Shown here piece by piece: positions 4,223 to 29,336 of a DNA stretch of 40,426 nucleotides (position 1 is its first letter; each line of letters starts with the position of its first letter). The stretch lies in contig JANSYF010000031.1 of the NCBI GenBank assembly GCA_024742575.1, positions 1 to 40,426 of the forward strand, in the 5' to 3' direction. A program made the translations under genes and the position numbers. Origin of the DNA: Paracoccaceae bacterium (GTDB lineage: Bacteria > Pseudomonadota > Alphaproteobacteria > Rhodobacterales > Rhodobacteraceae). The notes below the pieces were generated by a model. The model was not told the origin of the DNA, did no database searches, and was given only the letters and a program-made list of their open reading frames with translations.

Positions 4223-4227
4223 AGAGG

Positions 4228-8548: not shown

Positions 8549-8550
8549 CG

Positions 8551-14253: not shown

Positions 14254-14279
14254 AGGCGCCCCCGCGGCGTTGCGTGATC

Positions 14280-14309
14280 GGCAAGGCGGGCCCAAAGACT
14301 CGCCTTGCC
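14280..14309 (-). promoter_or_regulatory. Intra-operon stem-loop after the SBP gene
   Basis: GGCAAGGCG and CGCCTTGCC form a 9-bp perfect stem over a 12-nt loop, between the SBP stop (14318) and the permease start (14253). There is no T-run. Such hairpins protect the SBP mRNA from 3' decay or cause partial termination, so that binding protein exceeds membrane subunits. A similar hairpin occurs at 24636-24665 in the second importer. Confidence 0.6.
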
Positions 14310-14317
14310 CCAGTGGA

Positions 14318-15895
14318 TCAGTTCTTCACGACTTCGTCGAGCAACAGGAAGAACGAGGGTTGCAGCGCAAAGTTCTCGACCTTGTCCGAGGTGACCGCGT
14401 TCTGCTTCCAGTTGGCCACAAAGACCCAAGGCGCATCTTCCTGCACGATGACCTGCATTTCCTTATAGAGGCGCGCACGTTCATCTTGATCGGTGGCGAC
14501 GCGTGCCGCTTCGAGAAGCGCGTCAACTTCGGGGTTGGAATAGTAGCCCGAGTTAAAACCACCCTGATCCGGCCATGCCTCTGTACGAAGAGCTAGGAAG
14601 GGAAGCGTATCCGGATCATTTGTCATCCACGCCATTTCGGCTATGTCGGCTTTGCCCTCAAGGCCAGGGTTCACTTCACCCAGGAACGTGTTCCACTCAT
14701 AGGTCTCAATCGTCACGTCAAAGCCCACGGCTTCCAGATCGGCTTGAATTGCCGTGCCCATCGCAATCGGATCGAGCATCCCAGACCCACCTTCGGTGAC
14801 AAAGAAGGTCAGTTGAGCGCCCTCTGCCCCGGCTTCCGCGATCAGCGCGCGCGCCTTTTCTGGATCGTAGGGGTAAGGTTCAAGATCGGGATTGTAGGCC
14901 CATGCGAATGCAGGGGGCGTTGGCCCAGCGGCGACCGCGGCAGTGCCTTCCAATACATCGTTGACCAGCGCTTCCTTGTTCACCGCGAAGTTGGCGGCCT
15001 GCCGCACGCGAACGTCGGCGAACGGACCTTCCTTTGCGTTCAGGATCAGGAACCAGACATGCGGCCCGGCCTGTTCATGCACCGTGTAAGCATCGCCTTG
15101 AAATTCGCTTAATGCGACGGGGGGAACCTCGACCATCAGGTCAATGCCACCAGCCAGCATTTCAGCGGTGCGGGTGTTGGCATCGGTGATCGGACGGAAC
15201 ACAACGGCCTGAAGCTTGGGTGCGCCATCCCAGTAGTCAGGGTTTGCCTCGATCACGACAGCTTCGTTCGAACGCCATTCCCCAAAAGTGAAGGGCCCCG
15301 TACCGGACGGATTCCGTCCAAAGTCCGCACCGTGCTGTTCGACCGCAGCGGGTGATACGATCAGACCGGTTGGATAAGCCAAGTTCGACAGAAACGGCGC
15401 ATAAGGCCCGTTCAGGGTGAAGCGCACGGTCAAGTCATCGACAACCTCGGTCGATTCCACCGAAGAGAAAAAGAAGGCCAGCGGGAAAGGACCCGTGTCG
15501 TGATAGGGGTGTTCCTCGTTCAGCATCCGATCAAAGTTGAATTTTACCGCTTCGGCATTGAAGGCCGATCCGTCGTGGAATGTGATGCCATCACGCAGCT
15601 TGAAAGTATAAACGGTTCCGTCTTCACTGATTTCCCAACTTTCCGCCAGCGCAGGTTCGACTTCAAGTGTGCCGTCCTTGTAGCGCACCAGACCGTCATA
15701 GACGTTCATCAAGATGCGGAAATCGTTCACCGCAGTAACGGCGGCCGGGTCCAGCGCCTTGGGCTCGGCAATCTGGCCGACGATCAAAACGCCGGGCGGG
15801 GTTTGTGCCTGAGCGCCGGCAAATGCGCCAAAGGTCAAGGCAAGCGCGGTGCCGGTGGCCATGAGGCTCCGGCGGGTAACGTGAAAGAGCGACAT
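14318..15895 (-). CDS. Peptide/opine ABC transporter substrate-binding protein
   Basis: This 525-aa family-5 extracellular solute-binding protein has a 30-residue signal peptide with a twin arginine (VTRRSLMATGTALAL) ending at AQA/QT, so Tat export is possible. It carries the SBP_bac_5 signature region (ESWEISEDGTVYTFKLRDGITFHDG in parts), ENPSGTGPF-type motif FGRNPSGTGPF and EANPDYWDG. It captures ligand in the periplasm for the permeases encoded downstream. It is the first gene of a leftward operon. The 100-bp region to the divergent DUF1028 gene contains two copies of the TTTATCATGATAAA-like operator, so GntR control is likely. Confidence 0.92.
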   Translation of the reverse strand: MSLFHVTRRSLMATGTALALTFGAFAGAQAQTPPGVLIVGQIAEPKALDPAAVTAVNDFRILMNVYDGLVRYKDGTLEVEPALAESWEISEDGTVYTFKLRDGITFHDGSAFNAEAVKFNFDRMLNEEHPYHDTGPFPLAFFFSSVESTEVVDDLTVRFTLNGPYAPFLSNLAYPTGLIVSPAAVEQHGADFGRNPSGTGPFTFGEWRSNEAVVIEANPDYWDGAPKLQAVVFRPITDANTRTAEMLAGGIDLMVEVPPVALSEFQGDAYTVHEQAGPHVWFLILNAKEGPFADVRVRQAANFAVNKEALVNDVLEGTAAVAAGPTPPAFAWAYNPDLEPYPYDPEKARALIAEAGAEGAQLTFFVTEGGSGMLDPIAMGTAIQADLEAVGFDVTIETYEWNTFLGEVNPGLEGKADIAEMAWMTNDPDTLPFLALRTEAWPDQGGFNSGYYSNPEVDALLEAARVATDQDERARLYKEMQVIVQEDAPWVFVANWKQNAVTSDKVENFALQPSFFLLLDEVVKN

Positions 15896-15971: not shown

Positions 15972-15998
15972 CAAGTCTAAGACTTGGTGGAGGCCGCG

Positions 15999-16670
15999 AT
16001 GACAATTTCGATTCTCGCATTCGACGAAAAAACAGGCACTTACGGTGGCGCGGCAACCACGGGCAGTCTCTGCGTTGGGGGTTGGGTGCTTCGCGGCGAT
16101 GCCGAATCAGGGCTCTCAGCATCCCAAGGATCGCTTCCCAGCACTCTTTGGGGCCATGATGTGCTTGCACGGATGCGTTCAGGCGAGACGGCAGAAGCAG
16201 CGGTTCAGAATGTGGTCAATGTCGACGCTGGCCGAGAAGAGCGGCAATTGGCAGCGCTTGATCCGACGGGAGGCACCGGGGCCTTTACCGGGGCCAACAG
16301 TATCCAAAGCGCTGGCGTGCGCCAAGCACCGGGCGTTGTTGTTGCTGGCAACCTATTGACGTCCGAAGCCGTGCTGGATGCCTGTCTCAACGGCTTTCTG
16401 ACACAGACGGGCGCACTGGATCTGCGCCTGCTCAAAGCCCTAGAATGTGCGGCAGACGCCGGAGGTGACAGTCGCGGGCTATTGTCTGCAGCCGTACTAG
16501 TTGTGAACGCGGCGCGCCCACCACTCAGCTTACGAATCGACTATTCCGAGGCACCGCTTGACGCGCTCGCTGCACTTCACCACCGCGCCACAACCGGCCT
16601 TTACGCTGATTGGGCAAACCACGTACCGACGCTGTCCGACCCCGAACGGGCAATCCCGTTCACCGCATGA
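15999..16670 (+). CDS. DUF1028 family protein (putative Ntn-hydrolase)
   Basis: This 223-aa protein starts MTISILAFDEKTGTYGGAAT and continues GGWVLRGDAESGLSASQGS, then AAVQNVVNVDAGREERQLA and GVRQAPGVVVAGNLL, typical of DUF1028. The start at 15999 follows GGTGGAGG at optimal spacing. I recall that DUF1028 belongs to the Ntn-hydrolase clan; Thr2 would then be the catalytic nucleophile after Met removal. The protein therefore probably hydrolyses an amide or peptide bond, but the reaction is not established. It is divergent from a peptide-type importer and convergent with gntR, its stop touching the gntR stop, which suggests it acts on the imported ligand. Confidence 0.85.
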   Translation: MTISILAFDEKTGTYGGAATTGSLCVGGWVLRGDAESGLSASQGSLPSTLWGHDVLARMRSGETAEAAVQNVVNVDAGREERQLAALDPTGGTGAFTGANSIQSAGVRQAPGVVVAGNLLTSEAVLDACLNGFLTQTGALDLRLLKALECAADAGGDSRGLLSAAVLVVNAARPPLSLRIDYSEAPLDALAALHHRATTGLYADWANHVPTLSDPERAIPFTA

Positions 16671-17438
16671 TTATTCGGCGATGAAGCGCTTCATGACTTC
16701 GGCTTCTTGCGTTTCCATTTGATCCCGGGCCATTTCCATATGGTTACGCATGGTAAGGCGCGCACTGTCGGCGTCCCCCCGTCGCAACGCTGAAATAAGG
16801 TCAACCTGGTGCTGGCGGCCTGTGCGCCAGAGCGTATGGTTGGGCGTTGCATAGAGCCGCTTGTAGACCGTCAGATCCGTCAAGATTTGGGCCATGAAGC
16901 CAATGAAAAAACCAAGCAGCGCATTGCTACCGAAATCCGACAAGCGGGCGTGGAACCTGAGGGACGCAACATGCTGACGACGTTCTTCCTCTGCATCAGC
17001 GGCAGGATGGGCATAGTCCTCCATGATGTCCGCAAGCTCTGCGAGTTGCTTCGCGGACAAGCGCCCGGCAAGACTGGCCGCCAGTTCGGGTTCAAGGGCG
17101 ATCCGGACTTGGTAGATGTCGTCGATTGTCACATCACGGAAGTAGAAGTAATTCGCCAGTAGTGCCGCGGCCCGGTCGCGCGTCACCGCGCCAACAAAGC
17201 TGCCGCCGCCCGGGCCAGTCTTGGTTTCTACCAACCCCTGTGCCTGCAAAAGACGCATCGCCTCGCGGATGGTGCCTTTGGACATTCCGAAGCGCTCAAT
17301 CAGCTCAGCCTCTCCGGGAAGTCGGTCGCCTGGTTGCAGTCCCCGTTCCACAACCCAATCCTTGATCTCTTCCGCAACGCGCAAGGGACGCGACCGCCGG
17401 GATCGGGTTTTGTTTTCATTGGATGCGCTGCCGGACAT
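16671..17438 (-). CDS. GntR-family regulator (FadR/FCD type)
   Basis: This 255-aa repressor has an N-terminal winged helix (PLRVAEEIKDWVVERGLQPG, DRLPGEAELIERFGMSKGTI, REAMRLLQAQGLVETKTGPG) and a C-terminal FCD-type ligand domain. That domain shows DIYQVRIALEPELAASLAG and metal-ligand-like histidines in SLRFHARL and HQVDLISALRRGD. ATG at 17438 (MSGSASNENK) is preferred: a longer frame to 17582 would place the operator palindrome inside the gene and add a non-family N-terminus. The palindrome at 17490-17505 lies 52 bp upstream, consistent with autorepression. The same site precedes the peptide importer and DUF1028 genes. The effector is probably the imported compound or a metabolite. Confidence 0.88.
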   Translation of the reverse strand: MSGSASNENKTRSRRSRPLRVAEEIKDWVVERGLQPGDRLPGEAELIERFGMSKGTIREAMRLLQAQGLVETKTGPGGGSFVGAVTRDRAAALLANYFYFRDVTIDDIYQVRIALEPELAASLAGRLSAKQLAELADIMEDYAHPAADAEEERRQHVASLRFHARLSDFGSNALLGFFIGFMAQILTDLTVYKRLYATPNHTLWRTGRQHQVDLISALRRGDADSARLTMRNHMEMARDQMETQEAEVMKRFIAE

Positions 17439-17489
17439 ATTCTTATTCTCGATCTGGGCCAAAATCGCGATGTGCTCGAGAAGAAACCC

Positions 17490-17505
17490 ATTTATCATGA
17501 TAAAT
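17490..17505. promoter_or_regulatory. GntR operator copy 3 (autoregulatory)
   Basis: ATTTATCATGATAAAT is a perfect 16-bp palindrome identical to the core of the 15926 site, upstream of gntR and about 130 bp from the divergent EamA gene, which may also be controlled. Confidence 0.7.
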
Positions 17506-17635
17506 ACAAGTTCAATGTGACACACAAAGGGGGCCACAAGGCTCCACAGCAGTCCATGCCAATGTCGCATATAGGTGATCAAAGCCCGAACCGGGACGCT
17601 ACCCTATCAGGAAACACTTCTTTGACTGGCCAAAC

Positions 17636-18553
17636 ATGACGTCTATATCGCCTCATTCGTCCAGATCGGATGCCCAAAAACACGGCGTCTTCTTTGTTTT
17701 TGCGGCTGGCGTTTTGTGGTCAACTGTCGGACTGGGCATACGTCTGATCGAAGATGCCGTCGTGTGGCAGATACTGCTATATCGATCGATCAGCATGTCG
17801 CTGTTCCTCTACGTGCTCATTCGAGTTCGGTCGGGCGAAAGCCCTTTTGTTCAGATACGTCGCATTGGTGCTCCAGCCGTCATCGCTGGGCTTGCGCTGG
17901 TCGCGGCCTATTCCGGCGGGATCTACGCGATTCAAAACACCTCGGTCGCGAACGCCATGCTGCTTTTTGCGACGGCACCTTTCATGGCGGCGGTGCTAGG
18001 TTGGGTCGTGTTGCGAGAACCCGTCCGCACTGCGACTTGGGTGGCAACGGCGGTGGCAATTGGCGGAATCGCAATTATGGTTGCCGACAAGTCAGGAAGC
18101 GTGGTTCTAAAGGGCAGTCTTGCTGCGCTAGGGTCTGCATTCGGGTTCGCCGTCTTCACCGTGGCGCTGCGATGGGGACGCACGGGTGAAATGCTTCCAG
18201 CGGTTTTTCTGTCAGGTCTCTTGGCGATCGCTATAACAATGGCGATTTGTCTTGCTCTCGGGCTCTCTGTCTTTCTAAGCCTAAATGACGGCGGCATTGC
18301 CACGGGTATGGGGGTATTCCAGGTCGGCGCAGGTCTGATCCTTTACACACTGGGTTCACGCAGCCTCCCCGCAGCAGAGCTTGCATTGTTATCATTGGCC
18401 GAAGTTCTGCTCGGCCCGCTTTGGGTCTGGCTGTTTCTTGGGGAAACCGCGAGTATTTACACATTGATCGGAGGCGCAATTCTGCTTGCGGCCATCGCCG
18501 GCAATGCGCTGTCAGGCAAACGACGAAAACCACCACCGATCATTGCCCCTTAG
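17636..18553 (+). CDS. EamA/DMT-family transporter
   Basis: This 305-aa inner-membrane protein has about ten hydrophobic spans in two EamA repeats, the first roughly 18-140 (GVFFVFAAGVLWSTVGLGIR; VANAMLLFATAPFMAAVLGW) and the second 155-290 (LAALGSAFGFAVFTVALRWG; AELALLSLAEVLLGPLWVW). It ends in a basic tail. Members export or import amino acids, metabolites or drugs. The substrate is unknown. It is divergent from gntR with a GntR-type palindrome in between, so it may belong to the same regulon as the peptide importer. The Shine-Dalgarno is weak. Confidence 0.85.
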   Translation: MTSISPHSSRSDAQKHGVFFVFAAGVLWSTVGLGIRLIEDAVVWQILLYRSISMSLFLYVLIRVRSGESPFVQIRRIGAPAVIAGLALVAAYSGGIYAIQNTSVANAMLLFATAPFMAAVLGWVVLREPVRTATWVATAVAIGGIAIMVADKSGSVVLKGSLAALGSAFGFAVFTVALRWGRTGEMLPAVFLSGLLAIAITMAICLALGLSVFLSLNDGGIATGMGVFQVGAGLILYTLGSRSLPAAELALLSLAEVLLGPLWVWLFLGETASIYTLIGGAILLAAIAGNALSGKRRKPPPIIAP

Positions 18554-18688: not shown

Positions 18689-19714
18689 TCACGTACGGCC
18701 GTTTACTCCAGCCAGAACCGCAGAAAGATTGGAGCCGAGCGCATCGGAAAGATATCCTCCTTCCTGAATAAGGACGAGAGGAATACCCGCATACGCGAGC
18801 CGAGCACCAATGCGCCTGAAACCGGCTTCGGTGATGGCAAGTCCTTTGAACGGATCATCAATCGATGCGTCCAACCCAAGGGCAACGACAATACAGTCCG
18901 CCCCAAACGCATGAACGCGACGCATCGCGATATCTAGCGTCTTGAGATAGGCATCGTCCCCCGTCCCACGCGGTAGGGGAAGGTTGATATTGGATCCCAA
19001 TCCATCGCCCTCACCGCGTTCATGAGAATGCCCCCAGAAGAATGGGTAGAACCTTGCAGGATCGGCGTGGATCGAGACCGTAAGGATATCGCTGCGGTGA
19101 TAGAAAATGCCTTGTGTTCCGTTTCCGTGGTGCACGTCAACATCAAGGATCGCCGGTCGAAACCCTTTGGTTCGCAGGCGTTCAGCGGCAATTGCGGAAT
19201 TGTTCAGAAAGCAGAACCCGCCAGCAAGGTCGGCAAAAGCGTGATGTCCCGGTGGCCGAGATAATGCGTAAACGCCGGTTTCTCCGCCGGTCACCAGATC
19301 GGCTGCGGTAATTGCGGTCTGCGCAGACCAATAGGCCGATTCCCAAGTGTGCTCGGAAATCGGACATGCAGTATCCGCTTGGTGAAATCCTGCTTGCCCG
19401 ATTGCAGATTTCGGATAACTATCAGTGCGATTTGCTGGATGGATGTTCGGGATGACCTCGGGTGCTGCACCTTCGATCCGGCGCCAGCGGGCATGTATCG
19501 TCTCAAGGAAAGTCAAGTATTCCGCGCTGTGGACAGCAGCGATGGGTCCCAGTCCGGCATCGAAAGGCGGTCCGAAATTATAGCCGGATTGTTCCGCTGC
19601 AGATCTAAGCACATCGATCCGTGCGGGCTGTTCTGGACTACGAGACACCACGCCGTTCGCCATGAAATTCTGCGGGTCGTGCTTGCGCTGCCGATCGTCC
19701 AGTATCGCCTTCAT
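18689..19714 (-). CDS. Acetylpolyamine amidohydrolase-like deacetylase (HDAC family)
   Basis: This 341-aa arginase/deacetylase-fold enzyme has the same length I recall for the Mycoplana ramosa acetylpolyamine amidohydrolase. Catalytic features are visible: RPPGHH with His157/His158, the zinc ligands Asp193 and His195 in DVDVHHGNG, Asp282 in GLDASIDDP, and the transition-state Tyr321 in EGGYLSDAL. It would remove acetyl groups from acetylated amines (acetylputrescine, acetylspermidine or similar). It is the last gene of the leftward importer/aminotransferase/BKACE operon, and its start overlaps the GNAT stop by 4 nt. This context points to an N-acetylated amine or amino acid as substrate, but that specificity is inference. 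Confidence 0.88.
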   Translation of the reverse strand: MKAILDDRQRKHDPQNFMANGVVSRSPEQPARIDVLRSAAEQSGYNFGPPFDAGLGPIAAVHSAEYLTFLETIHARWRRIEGAAPEVIPNIHPANRTDSYPKSAIGQAGFHQADTACPISEHTWESAYWSAQTAITAADLVTGGETGVYALSRPPGHHAFADLAGGFCFLNNSAIAAERLRTKGFRPAILDVDVHHGNGTQGIFYHRSDILTVSIHADPARFYPFFWGHSHERGEGDGLGSNINLPLPRGTGDDAYLKTLDIAMRRVHAFGADCIVVALGLDASIDDPFKGLAITEAGFRRIGARLAYAGIPLVLIQEGGYLSDALGSNLSAVLAGVNGRT

Positions 19715-20193
19715 TTTTGTCCTCGTATATTTTGAAACGCCTGCCCGGTTAGAACCATAGTGGTTTCCGCTTCAACCGGTTCAAATCCAAGTGCGTTGTA
19801 AAGAGCACGGGCGCGTGTGTTGTCGGGATAAACCGCAAGGCGCATGAAACACGCCCCCCAAAGATCGGCTGCCGTTTCAGCCGCATTCTGCAAAAGCGCC
19901 GGGCCCAAACCATTGCCGCGTTCGACGCTGTCGACCCAGAGGTCGGACACGTACATACCAGCCCCCCCGCGAACGGTCGAAAAGACGGGTGAGAAAAGAA
20001 CGACACCACTTGGGCCAATAGGGCCATCTGCGATCTGCGCCCATGCCGCTTGGGGTGCACAGAAGAGCGCCTTTTCCAACGCGTCCATGTTTGCGCGATA
20101 TGCGTCACCAAGGTGATGGGATAGCGCCTTAAGAGCCTGTTCCAAAGACGCTAAATCGCCATCTACCGCGGGCCTGATCTTGTGCGTTTGCAT
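19711..20193 (-). CDS. GNAT-family N-acetyltransferase
   Basis: This 160-aa single-domain acetyl-CoA-dependent acetyltransferase shows the beta4/alpha3 core with the pyrophosphate loop around VDSVERGNGLGPALLQNAAE (about 100-119) and the C-terminal ARALYNALGFEPVE motif. An N-terminal RPAVDGDLASLEQALKALSH segment is typical of amine or polyamine acetyltransferases of this family. It is encoded 3 nt after the BKACE gene and overlaps the deacetylase gene. An acetylase and a deacetylase in one operon could acetylate an intermediate for protection and later free it, or act on different compounds. Substrate unknown. Confidence 0.85.
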   Translation of the reverse strand: MQTHKIRPAVDGDLASLEQALKALSHHLGDAYRANMDALEKALFCAPQAAWAQIADGPIGPSGVVLFSPVFSTVRGGAGMYVSDLWVDSVERGNGLGPALLQNAAETAADLWGACFMRLAVYPDNTRARALYNALGFEPVEAETTMVLTGQAFQNIRGQK

Positions 20194-20196
20194 CGG

Positions 20197-21123
20197 TCAG
20201 ATCGCTGTTTGGTCCGCCCCTTTGAGGCCAAGCATCGCGCGGGCCTCGTCAGGGGTGGCTGGGTGGCGGCCCATGTCTTCGACAATCCGACGGATCTTTA
20301 TAACCTGATCGGCATTGCGTTCAGCAAGCTTGCCTTTCGAAATCATCAGGCTGTCTTCTAGACCGACGCGCACATGTCCACCCATCGCAGCCGCCATCGT
20401 CGCAAATGGGACCTGGTGACGACCTGCGGCAAGGACAGAGAACGCGAAATCCTGCCCGAATAGCTTGTCCGCGATACGTTTCATGTGACTGAGGTTCTCA
20501 GGGTCCGGGCCGATACCGCCCAGAACACCAAACACAAACTGTATGAAAAACGGTGGTTCAACGAGCCCCCGATCCGCAAAATGGCGAAGCATATAGAGGT
20601 GCCCGACATCGTAGCATTCGAATTCGAACCGTGCGCCACGGTCCGTCCCGAGATCCCGCAGGATTGTTGCGATATCACGCGGAGTGTTTTTGAAGACAAG
20701 GTCGTCGGTGCCTTCAAGAAACGGCTTTTCCCAAGCGTACTTCCATTCTGCAATGCGCTCTGCTGCCGGATAAAGTGCAAAGTTCATTGTGCCCATATTG
20801 AGCGAACACATCTCGGGTTCGGCGGCCATTGGCGCGGCAAGCCGGTCTTCAAGCGCCATAACTGCACTACCGCCCGTAGAGATGTTTATCACGGCGTCCG
20901 ACGCCCGCTTGATCTGCGGTAGAAAGGCCATGAAATGCGCCGGCGAAGCTGAAGGCTGCCCAGTTTCCGGATCGCGTGCATGCAGATGCAGGATGGCGGC
21001 ACCTGCTTGAGAGGCGTCGATGGCGTGTTGGCTTATCTCGTCAGCCGTGATGGGCAGATAAGGGGACATGGACGGGGTATGGATTGAGCCCGTGATCGCG
21101 CAAGAGATGATGATCTTTGACAT
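20197..21123 (-). CDS. BKACE-family beta-keto acid cleavage enzyme (second copy)
   Basis: This is a 308-aa, full-length BKACE. Motifs: IISCAITGSIHTPSMSPYLP with the family ITGS/HTP start, AILHLHARDPETGQPS with the zinc-binding HLHARD, INISTGGSAVM, MCSLNMGTMNF, FVFGVLGGIGPDPENL and VRVGLEDSL. The start at 21123 is chosen because the family begins at this methionine; the longer frame to 21249 overlaps the aminotransferase gene. The reaction would be beta-keto acid plus acetyl-CoA to acetoacetate plus acyl-CoA. It lies 11 nt downstream of a class III aminotransferase in the importer operon. It is clearly divergent from the 7760 paralogue in length and sequence, so the two probably act on different keto acids. 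Confidence 0.92.
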   Translation of the reverse strand: MSKIIISCAITGSIHTPSMSPYLPITADEISQHAIDASQAGAAILHLHARDPETGQPSASPAHFMAFLPQIKRASDAVINISTGGSAVMALEDRLAAPMAAEPEMCSLNMGTMNFALYPAAERIAEWKYAWEKPFLEGTDDLVFKNTPRDIATILRDLGTDRGARFEFECYDVGHLYMLRHFADRGLVEPPFFIQFVFGVLGGIGPDPENLSHMKRIADKLFGQDFAFSVLAAGRHQVPFATMAAAMGGHVRVGLEDSLMISKGKLAERNADQVIKIRRIVEDMGRHPATPDEARAMLGLKGADQTAI

Positions 21124-21134
21124 GGCCCGGCCTT

Positions 21135-22487
21135 TCACACGGTTTCTTTGGAGACTGGTGCGATCTCTTCGGCGTATCGTGATAGCGCGTTGTCCAGCAG
21201 GTGCATGATCTCGTCGATCTGGGGTGCCGTGACGATGAGCGGAGGGCAAATCAGGAAATGATCGCCCTCATGCCCCCCGCGCGTGCGCCGGGAATAGATG
21301 ATGAGACCTAGCTCATAAGCGATCTCAACAAGGCGAGAATGCGCGTCCCACTTTTTCGGGAGGGGTTGCATGGTTTCGCGATCGGCAACTAGTTCGAACG
21401 CCAAGAGCAAGCCCTTGCCACGTACGTCGCCGATGAACGGATAACGGTCCATGAGGCGGTTCAGTTTGGCCTTGAGCACGTCCCCCATTCGGGCGGCGTT
21501 TTCTATCAGGTTTTGTTCTTCCAACTCTTCAAGCACCGCCAGACCGGCCGAACAGGCCAACGGATTGCCGGCGTAGGTGAACCCATGCTGAAAACCGCCG
21601 GCATCTAGCACCGGATCGACCAAGCGCGCACCCGCAACAATTGCCCCCAAGGGCGCGTAGCCCGCGCCGAAACCCTTGGACAGAGCCACGATGTCGGGCG
21701 TGATACCCCAATGCTCTGCCGCGAGAAATTTACCAGTACGGCCCGCGCCCGACATGACCTCATCGTAGATCAACAGCACACCGTAAGCATCGCAGATCTC
21801 GCGGATGCGGGTATAGTAGCTGTCAGGCGCAACCAGTGCGCCCGTCGACGCGCCGCCGATGGGTTCCATCAAAAAGGCAAGAACAGTTTCGGGACCAGCC
21901 GCCTTAATTTCCTCACGCAGAAGTTCCGCGTATCGTATCCCGCGCTCTTCTTCACTCAATGAGTCGCGATCAAGGTAGGTCGTGGGTGTCGCGATTTTGG
22001 GCATGCCTTCCATCATAGGCGCGAAGGGTTCGCGAAGCGGATCATACCCAGTAAGGTCCAGTGCACCAAAGGTGCAGCCGTGATAAGACGGAAACCGTGA
22101 AATGACCTTGTGCCGGGTTCCTTGCCCCGTGGCGAGGGCGTATTGGCGCGCCAGCTTTACCGCGCTCTCAACGGCCTCGGACCCTCCGGACACAAAGAAC
22201 ACACGGTCCAGCCCGTCAGGCGTCATCGCGACTGTCTTGGCGGCAAGGTCTTCGGACGGGTGGGTTCTGAAATGCAGGCGATACCCAAAGGTCGCCTTGT
22301 CCATCTGCGCTTTCATCTTCGCCAAAACGCGTGGGTTCGAATGCCCTATGTTCGACACCATGGCCCCCGAGGAGGCATCTATATAGCGCTTGCCGCTTTC
22401 ATCGAAGAGATAGACCCCTTCGCCTCGATCCAAAAAGGGCCTTGGGTTGCGTGTCTGGTAAAACAGATAGGACTGGGTGTCCGTCAT
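21135..22487 (-). CDS. Class III PLP-dependent aminotransferase (second copy)
   Basis: This 450-aa fold-type I enzyme has [20 protein letters not shown] (about 97-116), [36 protein letters not shown] with Asp242, and [12 protein letters not shown] with the PLP lysine at 271. The family includes beta-alanine, omega-amino acid and diamine aminotransferases, acting in the cytoplasm. Its start overlaps the ABC ATPase stop by 4 nt and it is followed after 11 nt by a BKACE. The arrangement importer - aminotransferase - BKACE implies conversion of an imported beta-amino acid or diamine product into a beta-keto acid. Confidence 0.9.
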
Positions 22488-23254
22488 TTTGCACCTTCCA
22501 GATGCTTGCGCAGAAATGCGCGGGTGCGGTCTTTTTCGGGGTTCTTGAACACCACTTCGGGGGGACCCTCTTCGACAACGACGCCTTGATCCATAAACAG
22601 GACGCGGTCGCAGACCGAAGCGGCGAAATCCATCTCGTGGGTGACGATGATCATGGTCATATGCTCTTCAGCGAGCTTTTTCATGACCTGATTCACCTCG
22701 TCTACCAATTCCGGATCAAGAGCGGATGTCGCCTCGTCAAACAGCATCAGCTTTGGTTCCATCGCCAAGGCGCGGGCGATCGCAACGCGCTGTTTCTGCC
22801 CGCCTGATAGCTGTGAGGGGTAATAGTCAATCCGTTCGAGCATCCCAACCTTGTCCAGCTGCTCATTTGCTAGCGCATCCGCCTGTTGGTTGGACAAACC
22901 CTTTAGCATTTTGGGTGCCATCGTGACATTTTCACGGGCAGTCATATGCGGGAACAGATTGAAATGCTGAAAAACCATTCCAATCTTCTGGCGCATCTCG
23001 TTGATGTGTTTTTCGTACTGACGGAACGGCAAGGACTTGTTCACTTGGACACCGTCCAGCCAGACCTCGCCCCGCGTGAGTGGGTCCAGATCGTTGATCG
23101 CGCGCAGTAAGGTGGACTTGCCAGAACCGGAGGGCCCGATGATGGCAACGATCTGCCCGCGTTCCACGGTCAGGCTGATGTCTTTCAGCACCTCCAAAGT
23201 GCCAAAGGATTTCTGCGCGTGGCGGACTTGGACGAAGTTCGAGTGATCTGTCAT
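22484..23254 (-). CDS. Polar amino acid ABC transporter ATP-binding protein
   Basis: This 256-aa GlnQ/HisP-type ATPase has Walker [14 protein letters not shown]-loop [11 protein letters not shown], signature [16 protein letters not shown], Walker [15 protein letters not shown] and H-loop VTHEM. An extra stretch of about 10 residues between LDGVQVN and RQKIGMV ([14 protein letters not shown]) is seen in some subfamily members. It is a cytoplasmic subunit of the importer whose permeases and SBP are encoded just upstream. Its stop overlaps the aminotransferase start. Confidence 0.93.
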
Positions 23255-23269
23255 TGGCGGCCTCCGGGC

Positions 23270-23926
23270 TCAGCGCGAAAGTGCAATGCGGCGCTCGATC
23301 TTGCGCTGCACCCACTCCATGCCAAGGTTGATGACGTAATAGAACGCAGCCGCGAGAATGTAGAATTCGAACGGCCGATAGGATGCGCCGATAGCGCGCT
23401 GTGCCGACAGCGTTAATTCGCTGACACCAATGACCGACACAAGCGCGCTGTCCTTAAGCAAGGCAATCATGTTGTTGCCGATCGGCGGGATCACAGCGCG
23501 CACGGCTTGTGGCACTATAACCTTTCGCAGTGCTTGACCACGGCTAAGACCTACCGTGCGTGCCGCCTCCATCTGGCCTTTATCGACGGACAGGATCGCT
23601 GTCTGGATCAGTTCGGAATTGTAGACGGCGAAGTGCAGGCCAAGCCCGATCACACCTGCAACAAAGGCTGGCAGATCGACACCAATCTGCACCAAACCAA
23701 AATAGATCAGGAACAGCTGCAAAAGCAGCGGAGTGCCCATGAATATCCATTCGAACAAACGAAAAGGGAGCCTGATCACCGCAGGCGCATAGAGAGCGAT
23801 CACGGCAAAAAAGATGCCGCCAAAAAAACTGAGCAACGCAGCAGCGACTGTTATTGCAATCGTCCAGAGACAACCAAGCAGAATGATGTCGATATATTTG
23901 GGGATGACCGTAAAATCGAGACCCAT
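23270..23926 (-). CDS. Polar amino acid ABC transporter permease
   Basis: This 218-aa HisM/GlnP-type permease has the EAA motif DKGQMEAARTVGLSRGQALRK near residues 114-132, followed by the conserved VIVPQAVRAVIPPIGNN. About five membrane spans are seen. It pairs with the permease 12 nt upstream and probably forms a heterodimer, as both are retained. Confidence 0.92.
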   Translation of the reverse strand: MGLDFTVIPKYIDIILLGCLWTIAITVAAALLSFFGGIFFAVIALYAPAVIRLPFRLFEWIFMGTPLLLQLFLIYFGLVQIGVDLPAFVAGVIGLGLHFAVYNSELIQTAILSVDKGQMEAARTVGLSRGQALRKVIVPQAVRAVIPPIGNNMIALLKDSALVSVIGVSELTLSAQRAIGASYRPFEFYILAAAFYYVINLGMEWVQRKIERRIALSR

Positions 23927-23938
23927 GACGCCGTCCCC

Positions 23939-24586
23939 TCAGTTGATCTGCACTCGGCGGTCAAGCCATGCCACAGCTCGTCCGGTTACATAGATGATGA
24001 TCATGTAAAGAATCCCGGCGAGCAGGAACATCTCGAACGGTTTGTAGGTCGACCCGATGTAGCGCTGCGCGGTGTAGGTCAGTTCAACCACAGAGATCGC
24101 AGCGACCAACGCGGTGGCTTTGATCAACATGTTCAGATTCACCCCCAAGGGCCGCACCATAAGCCGAGCGGCTTGAGGTAAAATGATCTTATGCATCGCC
24201 TGCCAACGGCTCAGACCAAGTGTCCGTGCCGCCTCTTTCTGCCCCTTGTCGATAGAGATAATGGCACCGCGGATCGTTTCCGTCATATACGCACCGGCAT
24301 TGATACCAAGACCGATCACACCAGCCTGGAAGGCATCCAGTTGGATACCAATCTGGGGGCCGCCAAAATAAAGAATGAAGAGTTGGATCAGAGCGGGCGT
24401 TCCACGAAAGACGCTGACATAAGCAGCCCCGACAAAGCGCGCGACGGCAAACCGGGACAGGCGAGCGGCCGCGCCCAGTGCCCCGCAAGCGAGGCCCAAA
24501 AACGCTGTGAGAACCGACAAAAGAATTGTGATCCCCGCGGCCTCGATGAAAAACGGATAGACCCTGAGCATCAGGTCAAAATCCAT
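23939..24586 (-). CDS. Polar amino acid ABC transporter permease
   Basis: This 215-aa inner-membrane subunit has the EAA loop DKGQKEAARTLGLSRWQAMHK followed by IILPQAARLMVRPLGVN, and FRGTPALIQLFILYFG earlier, all standard for the HisMQ family. ATG at 24586 follows AAGGAAAACCTGAC, so the longer frame to 24619 is not used. It is separated from the SBP gene by 180 nt containing a hairpin. It is a sister of the next permease. Confidence 0.92.
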   Translation of the reverse strand: MDFDLMLRVYPFFIEAAGITILLSVLTAFLGLACGALGAAARLSRFAVARFVGAAYVSVFRGTPALIQLFILYFGGPQIGIQLDAFQAGVIGLGINAGAYMTETIRGAIISIDKGQKEAARTLGLSRWQAMHKIILPQAARLMVRPLGVNLNMLIKATALVAAISVVELTYTAQRYIGSTYKPFEMFLLAGILYMIIIYVTGRAVAWLDRRVQIN

Positions 24587-24635
24587 GTCAGGTTTTCCTT
24601 GCTGATGTGGTGCGCCCAAATGCGCTGCTACTGCG

Positions 24636-24665
24636 GAACACCCGGCACCACGGCACCGGATGTTC
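24636..24665 (-). promoter_or_regulatory. Intra-operon stem-loop after the SBP gene
   Basis: GAACATCCGG and CCGGGTGTTC (minus strand) make a 10-bp stem with one G-T pair over a 10-nt loop, between the SBP stop and the first permease. No T-run follows on this strand. It is a likely mRNA-stabilising or partial-termination element giving SBP excess. Confidence 0.55.
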
Positions 24666-24765
24666 TTTTAACGTCAAAGCCGCTTAGGCGTTATGCACTG
24701 GCAATTCGCCCAGCGCTTCAAACCGTCATGACCCTGACAAGAGAGGTAGAAACCCGCGAAAGATC

Positions 24766-25542
24766 TTAGCGGATATCCGCGCCAATCCACTCTTCAGCGA
24801 GTTCGAGATAGGTTCCGTCTTCCATCATGGCATCTAACGCCGCCTGCATGGCTGCCGCCAGTTCAGGATTGCCTTCGCGGATTGCGATGCCAGCGCCAAA
24901 AGGTTCGGTCGTCGGGTCGGCAAACATCTCAAATTCCTGACCTTTTTCGCCCATGGCGAGAATCGCAGCGATTGAGTCGTTGACGATCGCATCGACGCGG
25001 CCATTCTCAAGCTCCAGCAGCAACTCTGGCAAGCCTTTGTAGGTGTTGATGTCGTAGCCCTTTTCACGCGCCCAACCTTCGTGGGTTTCGCCAAGGGTCA
25101 GACCGACTTTGACACCTTCGAGATCCTCAAGACTGGCAATGCCCGAACCCGGTTGCGTAAAAATTGCGCGTTTGTCGGAATAATAGGGGCCCACGAAGTC
25201 TACGACCTCGTCCCGCTCCTCGGTGATCGTCATCGAACCGACAATTGCGTCGTACTTATTGGCCAGCAGCCCGCCGATGATTCCGTCCCACGCGGTCGTC
25301 ACGATCTCGACTTCAAGACCCATGCGCTTGGCGATCTCGGCGCCCACCGCCGGGTCAAAACCCACCACTTCGTTTTGATCATTAACAAAGTTGAAAGGAG
25401 GGTAAGCACCGGACATCGCGATGCGGATAACACCTTTTTCCTTAAGTGTTTCAAGCTCTTCAGCAGCTGCCATGTGAATACCCATGGCAGCAAGGCCTGT
25501 GGCAAGAACAGCGGATTTTAGAAACGTGCGGCGAAGTTTCAT
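24766..25542 (-). CDS. Polar amino acid ABC transporter substrate-binding protein
   Basis: This 258-aa family-3 SBP has a signal peptide containing a twin-arginine motif (LRRTFLKSAVLATGLAAMG), so Tat export is plausible. Mature domain motifs: IRIAMSGAYPPFNFVNDQNE, VGFDPAVGAEIAKRMG, WDGIIGGLLANKYDAIVGSM and GVKVGLTLGETHEGWAR. ATG at 25542 follows GGAGATAAGA, which decides the start over the upstream in-frame codons. It is the first gene of an eight-gene leftward operon and is divergent from a LysR regulator. The ligand is unknown. The ligand-pocket arginine typical of alpha-amino-acid binders cannot be assigned with certainty by eye. Confidence 0.92.
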   Translation of the reverse strand: MKLRRTFLKSAVLATGLAAMGIHMAAAEELETLKEKGVIRIAMSGAYPPFNFVNDQNEVVGFDPAVGAEIAKRMGLEVEIVTTAWDGIIGGLLANKYDAIVGSMTITEERDEVVDFVGPYYSDKRAIFTQPGSGIASLEDLEGVKVGLTLGETHEGWAREKGYDINTYKGLPELLLELENGRVDAIVNDSIAAILAMGEKGQEFEMFADPTTEPFGAGIAIREGNPELAAAMQAALDAMMEDGTYLELAEEWIGADIR

Positions 25543-25649
25543 TCTTATCTCCATGTTGGTTATCTCGTGCCCGGATTTTCTCGGGTCATCGTTAGCGGAT
25601 TGAACCACTTGTAAAAATTCTTGCATGTGCGTGTATATCGCGCAAATAG

Positions 25650-25669
25650 ATATTGGTCATTCTCAATAT
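25650..25669. promoter_or_regulatory. Candidate LysR operator ATATTG-N8-CAATAT
   Basis: A 6+6 bp inverted repeat with an 8-nt spacer contains the LysR-type ATTG-N8-CAAT pattern (T-N11-A class). It lies 11 bp before lysR and about 110 bp before the SBP gene, as expected for autoregulation and divergent control. Confidence 0.6.
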
Positions 25670-25680
25670 AGATTTAATTT

Positions 25681-26676
25681 ATGAAGCCCCCCAATCGAAA
25701 CCGTTTTCCCTGGAACCTTGACTGGAACCTGTTGCGCACTTTTATGGTTGTCGTCGAGCAAAGAGGCATATCTAAAGCTGCGGCGTATCTGGGATTGAAA
25801 CAACCAACTGTCTCGGCTGCCCTGAAACGTTTGGAATCGGCTGTCGGCAAACAACTTATTGTGCGCAAACCTAACGAATTCACAGTCACGCGCCCCGGGC
25901 AAGCATTATACACAGAATGCACGACGATCTTTGGCGCTGTCTCTCAGCTTCCTGCAGTCCTAGAAGAAGATGTCGCCGATCTTCGTGGTCACTTGTCAAT
26001 CGCGCTCACAAGCTCTGTCATTTCGCCCCATTTCGACGATATACTCCATCGCTTCGCGGTTGCGCACCCGAACGTCACCTACGCCTTCGAGGTGCATGAA
26101 AGCGAAGATGTCGAATCTCAAGTCGCGCTGAACAGGTCCAGTTTCGGGATTTGCTTGTTGTCACGGTTCCCCAAAAATTTGAACCATGTTGTCCTTTATC
26201 GCGAATATTTTGGACTGTATTGCGGGCCTCGTCACCCGCTGTTTCAGGTCGAAACAATTTCGCCAAAGGACTTGGAAGGCGAACCTTTCGTTGCCTTCCA
26301 GACCGAAGCGCTAGGTGGTCCGCTGGAAGACATATCAAAGCTGCGCACCCAGCTGAAACTATCACCACACTGGCGTGGCGTTTCGTCTAGCCTTAATGAA
26401 ATTCGTCGCATGATTATGACGAATATCGGAATTGGAGCGCTTCCCGTCCATGTTGCGCAGCAAGATGTTGTCGCCGGGCACATCAGGCAACTTCCACCTT
26501 ATGAAAACCTGCCTTTGATCAACATTTTCTTGATCAGCAATCCCGCACGCAGATTTACCGAAGCTGAAACAGCCTTCCTTGAAGCGCTTTCCGAGGAACT
26601 GGCCGAAGTTGGCATCGAACAGCGCACCTACGGACTGCTGACTTCCTTAAACAAGCCTCATGTTCTCGGCGATTGA
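25681..26676 (+). CDS. LysR-family transcriptional regulator
   Basis: This 331-aa LysR-type regulator has its helix-turn-helix at residues about 16-75 (WNLLRTFMVVVEQRGISKAA, YLGLKQPTVSAALKRLESAV), followed by a linker helix and a periplasmic-binding-like effector domain with LRGHLSIALTSSVIS and a late TNIGIGALPVHVAQ. It is divergent from the importer-aminotransferase-BKACE-GNAT-deacetylase operon and is probably its activator, responding to the imported compound or a catabolic intermediate. An inverted repeat of LysR type overlaps its promoter. The 20-odd residue C-terminal tail after the domain is longer than usual. Confidence 0.9.
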   Translation: MKPPNRNRFPWNLDWNLLRTFMVVVEQRGISKAAAYLGLKQPTVSAALKRLESAVGKQLIVRKPNEFTVTRPGQALYTECTTIFGAVSQLPAVLEEDVADLRGHLSIALTSSVISPHFDDILHRFAVAHPNVTYAFEVHESEDVESQVALNRSSFGICLLSRFPKNLNHVVLYREYFGLYCGPRHPLFQVETISPKDLEGEPFVAFQTEALGGPLEDISKLRTQLKLSPHWRGVSSSLNEIRRMIMTNIGIGALPVHVAQQDVVAGHIRQLPPYENLPLINIFLISNPARRFTEAETAFLEALSEELAEVGIEQRTYGLLTSLNKPHVLGD

Positions 26677-26989: not shown

Positions 26990-28189
26990 ATGACAAAGCT
27001 CAAACTCACCAAACGGTCTGTCGAAGCGCTGCAGCCGCAAGAGAAAACCTTTACAGTCCGCGACACTGACCTCAGTGGCTTCAGCATCCGGGTAAATGCA
27101 AATGGAAAGCGTGCGTTCTATTACAGGTATCGTGTTGGTGGTGGTCGCGGAGCGCCCATTCGCGAACCAAAGATCGGTGACTTTGGGCAGGTAACTGTCG
27201 ATCAAGCACGGAACATCGCTCAAGACTGGGCCGCTGCAGTTCGTACCGGCGGTGACCCGATGGCAATACGACACCAAGAGCGCAGCGCACCAAAAATGGA
27301 CACCCTCTTCGATCGCTATTTGGCAGAGCACGCGCGCAAACGTAAAAAGCCATCCAGCCTTCGCAACGATATTCGCATGATCGAAAAGTGCCTGAGGCCA
27401 CATTTCGGGGCAATGCGTGTCAAAGACGTATCGCGCCAAAAAATTCGAAGCTATCACTCAAGCCTTGAAGCAACACCGTATGAAGCGAACAGGCAGCTTG
27501 CCCTGCTATCAAAGATTTTCACCTTTGCGGCAGATGAACTTGAGTGGATCAACCAGGGTGACCACCCCGCAAAGGGTGTAAAACGCTTTCAGGAAACCAA
27601 ACGCCGACGTTACTTGTCGGAAGCCGAACTGGCGCAACTCGGTGAAGCCCTACGCAAGGCGGAAACGGGAGAGCTCCAGAAATCGATATCCGTCTATGCA
27701 GTTGCAATGATCCGCATGTTGGTCCTGACCGGCGCACGCCATGGTGAGATACTGAAGCTGCGCTGGGACGAAGTAAACTTCGAGCGGAGCTGCTTGGAGC
27801 TCAGAGACTCCAAAACGGGCGCAAAGGAAGTCTTTCTGCCTCCAGCGGCCAAGCAGTTGTTGGCCAATGTACCCCGACAGCCCGGCAACCCCTATGTCAT
27901 CGCGGGCGCCAAAGAGGGCCAGCACCTGGTCAACATCAAAGACCCATGGGCAGTAATCCGCACGGCCGCAAGCCTTCCTGATGTCCGTATACACGACCTG
28001 CGGCACACCTTTGCCAGCCTTGGGGCACGTGCGGGCATGTCTCTACCATTGATTGGTGCGCTGCTCGGGCACCGCTCCACTCAAACTACAGCACGCTACG
28101 CCCACCTCTCTGACGACCCACTCCGTGCCGCGGTTGAAACGATTGGACTGGGGATAACAAGCGTATTTGGAACAACGAAAAATGGCTAA
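26990..28189 (+). CDS. Tyrosine-type site-specific integrase
   Basis: This 399-aa integrase has an N-terminal arm-binding domain of the DUF4102 kind (FTVRDTDLSGFSIRVNANGK) and a core-binding SAM-like domain around 100-190. The C-terminal catalytic domain shows Arg250 (LTGARHGEIL), His335-x-x-Arg338 (IHDLRHTF), His361 (GHRSTQTTARY) and nucleophile Tyr370. All catalytic residues are present, so it is probably active. It lies 140 bp from the tRNA-Arg fragment and reads away from it, as is typical for tRNA-targeting elements. The next gene starts inside its last codons. Confidence 0.93.
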   Translation: MTKLKLTKRSVEALQPQEKTFTVRDTDLSGFSIRVNANGKRAFYYRYRVGGGRGAPIREPKIGDFGQVTVDQARNIAQDWAAAVRTGGDPMAIRHQERSAPKMDTLFDRYLAEHARKRKKPSSLRNDIRMIEKCLRPHFGAMRVKDVSRQKIRSYHSSLEATPYEANRQLALLSKIFTFAADELEWINQGDHPAKGVKRFQETKRRRYLSEAELAQLGEALRKAETGELQKSISVYAVAMIRMLVLTGARHGEILKLRWDEVNFERSCLELRDSKTGAKEVFLPPAAKQLLANVPRQPGNPYVIAGAKEGQHLVNIKDPWAVIRTAASLPDVRIHDLRHTFASLGARAGMSLPLIGALLGHRSTQTTARYAHLSDDPLRAAVETIGLGITSVFGTTKNG

Positions 28190-28895
28190 ATCTCCTCGTC
28201 GATTAGCAGTAATGGGAAACCCCGATGCTCAGCGCTACTGGCGCGTTGAAGACTTGCATTGGGACGAGATTGAACGACGAACGAATCTACAGTTCTCACC
28301 CGAAGATCGAGAAGAGATTTTTCAGTGCACATTTGTCGCAGAAGGCGAACGATGTGTTTCAATTGATGACGTCGCCAGAGCGAAAGACGTCGAGAGCTAT
28401 GCGCAAGCGCTGAAGGCACATGCGGAAGCGCTCGCCGAACTTGCTGGCCCCTACGCGCACAATGCGGGCACCTTTTTGGGAGATGAATCTGAAGCACAGT
28501 TCCAAGCACTATCTCTTGCGATAAGAGACCCCGAATTTGACCTTGGGCAAACCCTGCGGCAGATAACAAAAGCTTCTGAAAAGCTTGTGACCGGCCTTGA
28601 GACAATCGACTTTCAAGGCTTCAAAACAGAACGCAAAGCTGAAGTAATCGAGTTGGCCTACTTCATCGCGGAGGCCCGGCAGGGGGCAACGCCCACACCA
28701 GCACGTGCGAATTTGGGTTACCTCAAAGATCCTACCGTGTTCGAATACCATCGCTGGGGGCTCCATTTGAGCGAGGAGAGCCGGCAGTTCGCTGCGTTTG
28801 TGTCGGCGATACTCACGCGCAAGGTGAGTTGTGAACAGCTACAACACGCGCTTACAGCAGCCAAAGAAATGGGCTTGATCAATAGGCCAGAATAA
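28182..28895 (+). CDS. Hypothetical protein of the integrative element
   Basis: No family was recognised for this 237-aa soluble protein without signal or membrane segment. The N-terminal 40 residues contain NPDAQRYWRVEDLHWDEIER, and the middle is rich in Ala/Glu helices (VESYAQALKAHAEALAELAG). The ATG at 28182 overlaps the integrase stop by 8 nt, so the two are coupled. Its gene ends inside a strong AT-rich stem-loop. It may be an accessory factor of excision or control; this is guesswork from position. Confidence 0.7.
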   Translation: MAKSPRRLAVMGNPDAQRYWRVEDLHWDEIERRTNLQFSPEDREEIFQCTFVAEGERCVSIDDVARAKDVESYAQALKAHAEALAELAGPYAHNAGTFLGDESEAQFQALSLAIRDPEFDLGQTLRQITKASEKLVTGLETIDFQGFKTERKAEVIELAYFIAEARQGATPTPARANLGYLKDPTVFEYHRWGLHLSEESRQFAAFVSAILTRKVSCEQLQHALTAAKEMGLINRPE

Positions 28896-28920
28896 AAACA
28901 TCGGAATGTGTTTTTATTCT
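28889..28920 (+). terminator. AT-rich stem-loop with T-run, candidate terminator
   Basis: AGAATAAAAACA and TGTTTTTATTCT form a perfect 12-bp stem over an 8-nt loop, overlapping the stop codon of the preceding gene. The descending arm is T-rich and followed by TGTTT. It could end the integrase transcript in either direction. The stem has few G-C pairs, so its strength is uncertain. Confidence 0.5.
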
Positions 28921-28970
28921 TGTTTACAGCGGGCTCACTAAACCTTCGGCACAAACCCCTTCAGAAGCCA

Positions 28971-28985
28971 CCAGAATCGTTCTGG
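28971..28985. promoter_or_regulatory. Small palindrome CCAGAA-TCG-TTCTGG
   Basis: A 6+6 bp perfect inverted repeat lies 25 bp upstream of the HTH gene, a possible operator for that DNA-binding protein or a small hairpin. Confidence 0.3.
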
Positions 28986-29009
28986 GGCAACCTGAAGAAA
29001 GGGTGTCGC

Positions 29010-29336
29010 GTGAGAAACCGTGCCTCCGAAGAACATAAAACTGCTGATGTGCAAAATCCAAGCAGCGAACAGAAAACTCAGCCGTCCATTTTGCTTAGCC
29101 GCGATCAGATCGAGGCTGACTACAATATCTCCCGTCGCTGGCTGGAACTGGCAGCGCTGACGGGCGACGGCCCCACATTCATTAAAATTGGCGCCAGAAC
29201 CGTCCGCTATCGCCGGGAAGAGCTGGAACGTTGGCTTTCTGAGCGCGAAGTGCGCAGCACATCAGAAACGCCATATACGTCCAACACCTCTAATGCATAC
29301 AATTCCAAACTCACAGCAGCGGAGGATAAGGCATGA
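29010..29336 (+). CDS. AlpA/excisionase-like helix-turn-helix protein
   Basis: This 108-aa protein has an MerR/AlpA-type HTH in its middle: LLSRDQIEADYNISRRWLEL, then GDGPTFIKIGARTVRYRREE and LERWLSER, the classic pattern of AlpA, Xis and plasmid helper proteins. GTG at 29010 follows GAAAGGGTGTC, and the upstream residues of the open frame run through noncoding-like sequence, so this start is preferred. It probably controls integrase excision or the primase gene, whose ATG overlaps its stop by 4 nt. Confidence 0.8.
   Translation: MRNRASEEHKTADVQNPSSEQKTQPSILLSRDQIEADYNISRRWLELAALTGDGPTFIKIGARTVRYRREELERWLSEREVRSTSETPYTSNTSNAYNSKLTAAEDKA

Follow-up and report, generated by a model that had tools for sequence, protein, structure and literature searches.

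A candidate beta-lysine degradation operon with importer, aminotransferase, BKACE, acetyltransferase and deacetylase genes in Alphaproteobacteria

Introduction

The aerobic degradation of L-beta-lysine was reportedly worked out by Barker in a Pseudomonas strain, in which a beta-lysine acetyltransferase and an N6-acetyl-beta-lysine transaminase (EC 2.6.1.65) are said to be followed by cleavage of 3-keto-6-acetamidohexanoate with acetyl-CoA and by a 4-acetamidobutyryl-CoA deacetylase (EC 3.5.1.51). We know of no sequence tied to these enzymes, and no paper giving the names of the pathway intermediates in this context was found in the open-licence literature searched. Here we describe an operon from a 40,426 nt stretch of Paracoccaceae bacterium DNA (GenBank assembly GCA_024742575.1, contig JANSYF010000031.1, positions 1 to 40,426; hereafter the window), which combines an ABC importer with a class III aminotransferase (AT3), a beta-keto acid cleavage enzyme (BKACE), a GNAT-family acetyltransferase (GNAT) and a deacetylase of the histone-deacetylase (HDAC) fold (DAC). 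We infer, with a probability of roughly 60%, that its products take up and break down beta-lysine (3,6-diaminohexanoate) or an omega-amino beta-amino acid that is very similar to it. Gene content, enzyme families, key residues, conservation and the swapping of enzyme pairs among relatives were observed directly, and all substrates and the order of the steps are predicted from sequence comparison. Each of the four catalytic steps attributed to Barker's pathway, which has so far been known mainly from older enzyme work, has one gene of fitting enzyme class in the gene set of the operon (here called the module). The best-ranked part of the open-licence literature searched held no description of the module. 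In terms of its genes, the module is probably a new version of a route for which the biochemistry is already known.

A related gene set is the kamA-ablB-yodQRST operon of Bacillus (L211 and L212 among the loci compared here), in which the aminotransferase gene yodT lies in a cluster that also encodes a peptidase, the subunits of a CoA-transferase and AblB, whose annotation is putative beta-lysine N-acetyltransferase. A lysine 2,3-aminomutase gene comes next in the Cytobacillus cluster, and the B. subtilis record has a kamA-like stretch in two pieces with no listed gene. In the available part of PMC6522883, B. subtilis KamA yields L-beta-lysine in vitro and YodT is described as uncharacterised. 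The Bacillus operon and the module both include a GNAT, a deacylase and a beta-keto-acid step, and their aminotransferases fall in one clade. However, the Bacillus operon has a lysine 2,3-aminomutase and no importer gene beside it, a CoA-transferase replaces BKACE, an M20 peptidase replaces the HDAC fold, and the GNAT is unrelated; no CoA-transferase A/B or M20 peptidase gene was found in the window operon.

At the level of single enzymes, the acetylpolyamine amidohydrolase (APAH) of Mycoplana ramosa (PDB 3Q9B) shares its family, metal ligands and catalytic tyrosine with DAC, and BKACE15 of Paracoccus denitrificans (PDB 8RIO/8RIP/9HNF) matches the window BKACE with 365 bits over nearly its full length, with the same catalytic motifs. 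The genetic context of BKACE15 suggests aromatic degradation rather than an aminotransferase-GNAT-deacetylase operon, in the accessible text of PMC11961710.

Results

Organization of the operon

Eight open reading frames (ORFs), all intact and free of internal stops, occupy the minus strand (complement 18689-25626) in the order solute-binding protein (SBP), two permeases, ATPase, AT3, BKACE, GNAT and DAC, with a LysR gene divergent from them (Table 1). The initial annotation of this DNA had described eight closely packed genes on one strand and assigned their importer and enzyme families; both points were confirmed, since the family assignment of every operon gene exceeds its Pfam cut-off. The 4-nt overlaps, said to be several, exist at two junctions only (ATPase/AT3 and GNAT/DAC), and spacers of 11 nt and 3 nt separate AT3 from BKACE and BKACE from GNAT. 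The SBP gene, which had been placed at 24766-25542, is real, but its ORF reaches 25626 and 25542 is a later ATG. The first start codon of permease 1 is TTG, and its real start may lie further inside. The host draft genome (3.49 Mb, 87% complete) has five BKACE-family matches, two of them inside the window.

Table 1. Features of the operon and its divergent regulator in the window.
Feature	Position	Strand	Basis or remark
SBP of polar amino acid (PAAT) ABC importer	24766..25626	-	PF00497; alternative start 25542
ABC permease 1, PAAT type	23939..24619	-	PF00528 and TIGR01726 over cut-off
ABC permease 2, PAAT type	23270..23926	-	PF00528 and TIGR01726 over cut-off
Importer ABC ATPase	22484..23254	-	PF00005
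AT3, proposed N6-acetyl-beta-lysine transaminase	21135..22487	-	PF00202; YodT clade
BKACE, proposed 6-acetamido-3-oxohexanoate cleavage enzyme	20197..21123	-	PF05853 and NF053538 over cut-off
GNAT, proposed beta-lysine omega-N-acetyltransferase	19711..20193	-	PF00583; profile matches
DAC, APAH-like HDAC fold, proposed 4-acetamidobutyryl-CoA / 4-acetamidobutyrate deacetylase	18689..19714	-	PF00850
LysR regulator, divergent, probable operon regulator	25681..26676	+	PF00126/PF03466
Divergent intergenic region, 138 nt if SBP starts at 25542; presumed shared promoter/operator	25543..25680	.	position

Conservation of the module

Named genomes were scanned with a DAC alignment, and the best 80 of 581 confirmed loci were retained, of which 75 were informative, with 3.5 kb or more of sequence on the upstream side of DAC; because these loci were picked by DAC similarity, the sample is biased to near relatives. 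AT3, BKACE and DAC occur together in 63/75 informative loci, hereafter the 63 module loci, so that the neighbourhood on whose conservation the initial annotation had made its proposal depend is kept; GNAT is also present in 48/63. Median identity to the window is 70% for DAC, 75% for BKACE, 64% for AT3 and 43% for GNAT (in its 48 loci). The module loci span eight named families of Alphaproteobacteria: Paracoccaceae (24), Roseobacteraceae (22), Stappiaceae (6), Rhizobiaceae (3) and four others with one each, the other four loci being unlabelled.

When 248 genomes of the family were searched with GNAT, 29 best loci were obtained in addition to that of the window. In 21 of them BKACE and DAC lay beside GNAT; the others carried AT3, GNAT and CoA-transferase subunits (3), AT3-GNAT-DAC (1), GNAT-DAC (1), AT3-GNAT (1) or neither (2). 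In an even sample of the phylum (n = 398 genomes), a DAC match at E 1e-60 was found in 89. BKACE was present in the fetched locus for 12 of the 16 DAC matches that scored more than 570 bits, that of the host genome among them, and for 2 of the 14 weaker ones fetched. Of the four loci above 570 bits without BKACE, L242 ends at a contig end, and a wider view of L240, L241 and L243 showed no BKACE nearby. Among the plasmid records opened, the module was present in 3/5 from the BKACE search and 1/7 from the DAC search, namely in Parasedimentitalea (without GNAT), Shinella, Phyllobacterium and Pararhizobium; it was absent from the Azospirillum and Roseovarius BKACE matches and from six of the seven DAC matches. 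The set of named genomes and that of unnamed ones share three loci or more (L011 = L162, L013 = L148 and L017 = L157), so their counts must not be summed. The recurrence of AT3-BKACE-(GNAT)-DAC is more than chance.

Proposed pathway

In the proposed pathway, the diamino acid would be imported by the ABC importer and its omega-amine acetylated by GNAT, which would mask the charge and keep the later 6-amino-3-keto acid from cyclising. AT3 would then transaminate the beta-amine to give 6-acetamido-3-oxohexanoate, an uncharged beta-keto acid that BKACE would convert with acetyl-CoA to acetoacetate and 4-acetamidobutanoyl-CoA. DAC would then free the masked amine, and hydrolysis of the thioester would fall to DAC or to another enzyme; the resulting 4-aminobutyrate would enter central metabolism together with acetoacetate.

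The aminotransferase and the exchange of its partner enzymes

AT3 shares 39% identity with YodT of B. subtilis. When 35 class III aminotransferases, taken from the sequences at hand, were compared in a tree, a 22-row clade with support 99/97 comprised 19 module AT3s, the second aminotransferase of the window and the YodT proteins of B. subtilis and Cytobacillus; the 13 other rows, several of them long-branched, fell outside. The top NCBIfam model of AT3 is the second of YodT and vice versa, AT3 remaining below both cut-offs; NF005375 is passed by YodT (786 bits), while AT3 scores 431 against a cut-off of 535.

Two relatives, L221 and L223, share with the window the LysR gene and, at identities of 71-85%, 75-78% and 34-47%, respectively, the PAAT importer, AT3 and GNAT, but behind GNAT they carry 3-oxoacid CoA-transferase A/B and an ArgE/DapE-family deacylase. 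Searches of these two genomes, which are 94% and 100% complete, found neither a close BKACE nor a close DAC at E 1e-60. By predicted enzyme family this set matches the Bacillus lysine 2,3-aminomutase operon, and with its importer, AT3 and GNAT it is intermediate between that operon and the module. A third relative, L220, combines a polyamine-type importer, AT3, GNAT and CoA-transferase. Unrelated enzymes for beta-keto acids thus interchange beside the same AT3, which suggests that the product of AT3 is a beta-keto acid.

The window itself contains a second, divergent BKACE-family gene with a class III aminotransferase gene of the YodT group directly behind it (7760-9876, plus strand). A peptide-type ABC importer, a DUF1028 gene, a GntR regulator and an EamA transporter lie nearby (10473-15895, minus strand, and 15984-18553), and this group is possibly a second unit for a beta-amino acid.

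BKACE and its predicted substrate

The window BKACE matches PF05853 with 356 bits and NF053538 with 501 bits (cut-off 430), and its His45, His47, Tyr170, Arg251, Glu255 and Asp256 (numbered without the initial Met) are invariant (15/15); their catalytic roles, the tyrosine apart, are presumed here. Its nearest relatives are 3e02, 3e49 and BKACE15, and its nearness to BKACE15 would place it in group G1, tabulated as hydrophobic and non-charged polar in the available portion of PMC4922564. The substrates listed for BKACE15 in the accessible part of PMC11961710 are beta-ketohexanoate, 3,5-dioxohexanoate and similar uncharged beta-keto acids, with malonate semialdehyde as well.

This range would also suit the same chemistry on another beta-amino acid, such as beta-ornithine, 3-aminobutanoate or beta-alanine, with acetylation outside the main route. 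Such a substrate is quite unlikely, since GNAT and DAC would have nothing to do in this route, except where a second amine is present in the compound.

Two other kinds of BKACE were considered. A carnitine-type enzyme with a charged substrate was ruled out by the NF053538 match and by BKACE15 being the closest characterised enzyme. The Kce enzyme of lysine fermentation was rejected because its model, NF052387, scored below its cut-off (240 against 382 bits); in that pathway, too, a BKACE cuts a lysine-derived beta-keto acid, but according to the part of the literature available this is 3-keto-5-aminohexanoate and the enzyme belongs to group G2. Elsewhere in the host genome (L003 / L219, G000:C116), another BKACE gene directly adjoins a 3-oxoacid CoA-transferase gene.

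The acetyltransferase

The GNAT protein (ACETYLTRANSFERASE) matched curated NCBIfam models weakly, and the AblB model was not among its six matches. A profile of 29 GNAT sequences matched 151 solved sequences at E 0.01; among the best 60 of 151, which include many other GNATs, thialysine acetyltransferase came first (8.5e-26), followed by 2fe7 (unnamed substrate) and diamine acetyltransferase 2, with diamine acetyltransferase 1, the ornithine N5-acetyltransferase NATA1 (further down) and several proteins without a named substrate among the other top matches. Thialysine, ornithine and diamine acetyltransferases act on lysine-like omega-amines or on diamines.

The deacetylase and the order of the steps

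The best solved relatives of DAC are acetylpolyamine amidohydrolases, and none of the six positions examined for metal binding and catalysis varies among the module loci (conserved in 63/63). DAC differs at the positions aligned to Glu17 and Glu106 of APAH, which we take to be polyamine-recognition residues: position 17 is Phe in 63/63, and position 105 is never acidic. Position 116, aligned to Glu117, is Ala in 50/63 and Ser in 13/63, while in APAH this glutamate forms a salt bridge with the cationic amine of the substrate, according to the available text of PMC5454378. The window DAC also lacks the PIS motif, given in the accessible part of PMC11532494 as a mark of bacterial polyamine deacetylases.

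These differences count against the use of acetylated polyamines or diamines, in which DAC would deacetylate acetylputrescine or a similar compound and AT3 would be a diamine transaminase. The initial annotation had named acetylated diamines as one possible substrate; we regard this as very improbable, in spite of the solved relatives of DAC and of the polyamine-type importers of 42/63 clusters, as it would produce no beta-keto acid for BKACE and the window importer is of the amino-acid type.

The nearness of BKACE to enzymes with uncharged substrates, the omega-amine-type GNAT and the lack of the cation-binding glutamate in DAC fit better with acetylation first and deacetylation last. The order in the initial annotation was the reverse: N6-acetyl-beta-lysine would be imported and deacetylated by DAC, with AT3 and BKACE acting on free-amine compounds. 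This order is probably wrong, and its likelihood appears slight. It could draw on N-acetyl-beta-lysine being a known compatible solute, as stated in a source available in part, and on the clusters without GNAT, where a pre-acetylated substrate may be usable. However, the omega-amine-type acetyltransferase of 48/63 clusters would serve no purpose in a route that begins by removing the acetyl group, and 6-amino-3-oxohexanoate is expected, as a matter of chemical inference, to cyclise. What stands of the N-acetyl-beta-lysine guess is a chemically sound intermediate within a conserved unit of importer, YodT-group transaminase, BKACE and acetyl-handling enzymes; import of the acetylated form is disfavoured.

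In the host genome, a second DAC-like gene (44%) is divergent from another class III aminotransferase gene (L200, G000:C80, 6790-9290).

Importer and regulator

The nearest NCBIfam models of the SBP are those for a Lys/Arg/Orn SBP and a cystine SBP, each below its cut-off, and the top models of the ATPase, GlnQ and EhuA, were also below theirs. SBP counterparts are 55-87% identical in relatives with the same importer type, and a LysR counterpart 74-80% identical occupies the same location in L105-L107. The importer of the 63 module loci is of the polyamine type in 42, of the PAAT type of the window in 12, of a branched-chain/urea type in three and unseen in six. The use of importers of the amino-acid type as well as the polyamine type would fit a molecule that belongs to both classes. 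Ectoine uptake and use was rejected, as the Ehu equivalogs scored below cut-off (EhuA 311/345, EhuC 148/197, EhuD 137/205 and EhuB 87/191 bits) and BKACE would have no place in it.

Evidence against beta-lysine and the alpha-diamino acid alternative

Several observations weigh against the degradation of beta-lysine. Genes for D- or alpha-amino acids, which are superfluous for beta-lysine chemistry, lie downstream of DAC in many of the 63 module loci: a DauA-like (D-arginine-dehydrogenase-like) gene in 28 (29 with a looser limit), accompanied by RidA in 19; DgcA/DgcN-like genes in seven; and a racemase with an M20 hydrolase in five, all without GNAT. GNAT is absent in 15/63, where the BKACE-DAC gap of 22-144 nt leaves no room for it, so that it is truly missing between the two genes. 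BKACE is absent from the AT3-GNAT-DAC clusters of L113, L126, L148 (= L013 = L224), L240 and L241, and no CoA-transferase was seen near these clusters. A close BKACE is encoded elsewhere in the genomes of L240 and L241, while the L224 genome gave no close BKACE at E 1e-60 and no CoA-transferase in the stretch seen. The genome of L220, with its CoA-transferase, holds a close BKACE elsewhere, as well as a more distant DAC.

Other points concern the comparison with Bacillus and the fate of the products. Small trees did not reveal orthology of the CoA-transferases and M20 deacylases of the relatives with those of Bacillus, and GNAT had no meaningful BLAST match to AblB/YodP. No TIGR00238 match for lysine 2,3-aminomutase was found in the genome of the window (87% complete), so that beta-lysine would need to be imported. 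The uncharged positions of DAC are common to many relatives outside the module, and they argue against acetylpolyamine but single out no substrate. None of the models for GabT, succinate-semialdehyde dehydrogenase and acetoacetyl-CoA synthetase was passed in the host genome; for the activation of acetoacetate, this genome does encode a candidate enzyme, a 3-oxoacid CoA-transferase.

Part of this evidence would be better explained by an alpha-diamino acid substrate, such as the L and D forms of lysine or ornithine. GNAT would acetylate the omega-amine, AT3 (for the L form) and the DauA-like enzyme (for the D form) would give an omega-acetamido-2-oxo acid, DAC would later free the amine, and BKACE would act further on or in a side branch. 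With a score of 284 bits, the DauA-like protein of L108 is clearly related to D-arginine dehydrogenase, and it keeps a glutamate aligned with Glu87 of that enzyme, whose numbering and role are assumed here. Alpha-amino acids are the substrates of the racemase and of the products of the DgcA/DgcN-like genes, GNAT has a resemblance to acetyltransferases for thialysine and ornithine, and some clusters lack BKACE, one of them in a genome in which no close BKACE was found. Accounting for the D-amino-acid genes is where this model does better than beta-lysine. It nevertheless appears unlikely, because BKACE is next to AT3 in 63/75 informative loci, although 2-oxo acids are not substrates in BKACE chemistry, and a 3-oxoacid CoA-transferase pair accompanies AT3 and GNAT in three relatives; both BKACE and the CoA-transferase would be left without a task. 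The window operon, moreover, has no D-amino-acid gene, nor do its nearest relatives, L105-L107, over the available sequence (that of L105 ends soon after DAC). Across L105-L184, the three alternative D-amino-acid gene sets occupy the same site directly downstream of DAC.

Lysine 2,3-aminomutase loci and other neighbouring genes

No tblastn match for lysine 2,3-aminomutase was found across L105-L184. TIGR00238 matches occurred in 27/248 genomes of the family, and the two strongest (G162 and G072) were examined as possible proof of the pathway; their neighbourhoods (L185 and L186) hold ATP-grasp ligases, as judged by eye, and the module is absent, as it is from the kamA loci of Deinococcus, Thioflavicoccus and Bradyrhizobium. 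In L186 (4525-10061) and L185 (915-4427) the aminomutase gene is beside two ATP-grasp-like genes, and L186 also encodes a protein whose HDAC part (44% identical to DAC) is flanked by two GNAT-like parts, again by eye. These clusters look like sets for the synthesis of a small molecule containing beta-lysine.

Just past LysR, on the right flank (26990-31804, plus strand), the window encodes a phage-type integrase and a primase/D5-like protein, resembling an integrated element. At 2777-5751 (minus strand), an ORF with many PGQVPTAV-type repeats adjoins, by eye, an ORF resembling the outer-membrane transporter of two-partner secretion.

Discussion

The initial annotation knew of no standard pathway with exactly this gene set. 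That statement was half right: the four steps match those reported for Barker's pathway, and the Bacillus kamA operon is analogous. If the degradation of beta-lysine is the correct reading, four enzyme steps that are said to have been described decades ago without sequences, including EC 2.6.1.65 and EC 3.5.1.51, would gain candidate genes that can be tested. Since some relatives have, in place of BKACE and DAC, a CoA-transferase and a different deacylase, the proposed steps lend themselves to a direct test.

A broader, tentative view is that the module is a cassette of exchangeable parts that handles beta-lysine, either as such or bound to D-amino acids, is widespread in marine Alphaproteobacteria and contains candidate genes of Barker's pathway. 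If so, there would be an unrecognised nutrient containing beta-lysine in seawater, for which the osmolyte N-acetyl-beta-lysine or small peptides from clusters with KamA and ATP-grasp ligases, such as L185 and L186, would be candidates, and an enzyme of the histone-deacetylase fold would be a metabolic deacetylase of a CoA thioester.

Degradation of beta-lysine by this operon would give a metabolic role to a subgroup of BKACE and to a subgroup of bacterial HDAC-fold deacetylases, and would mean that marine bacteria use a diamino acid seldom counted among their nutrients.

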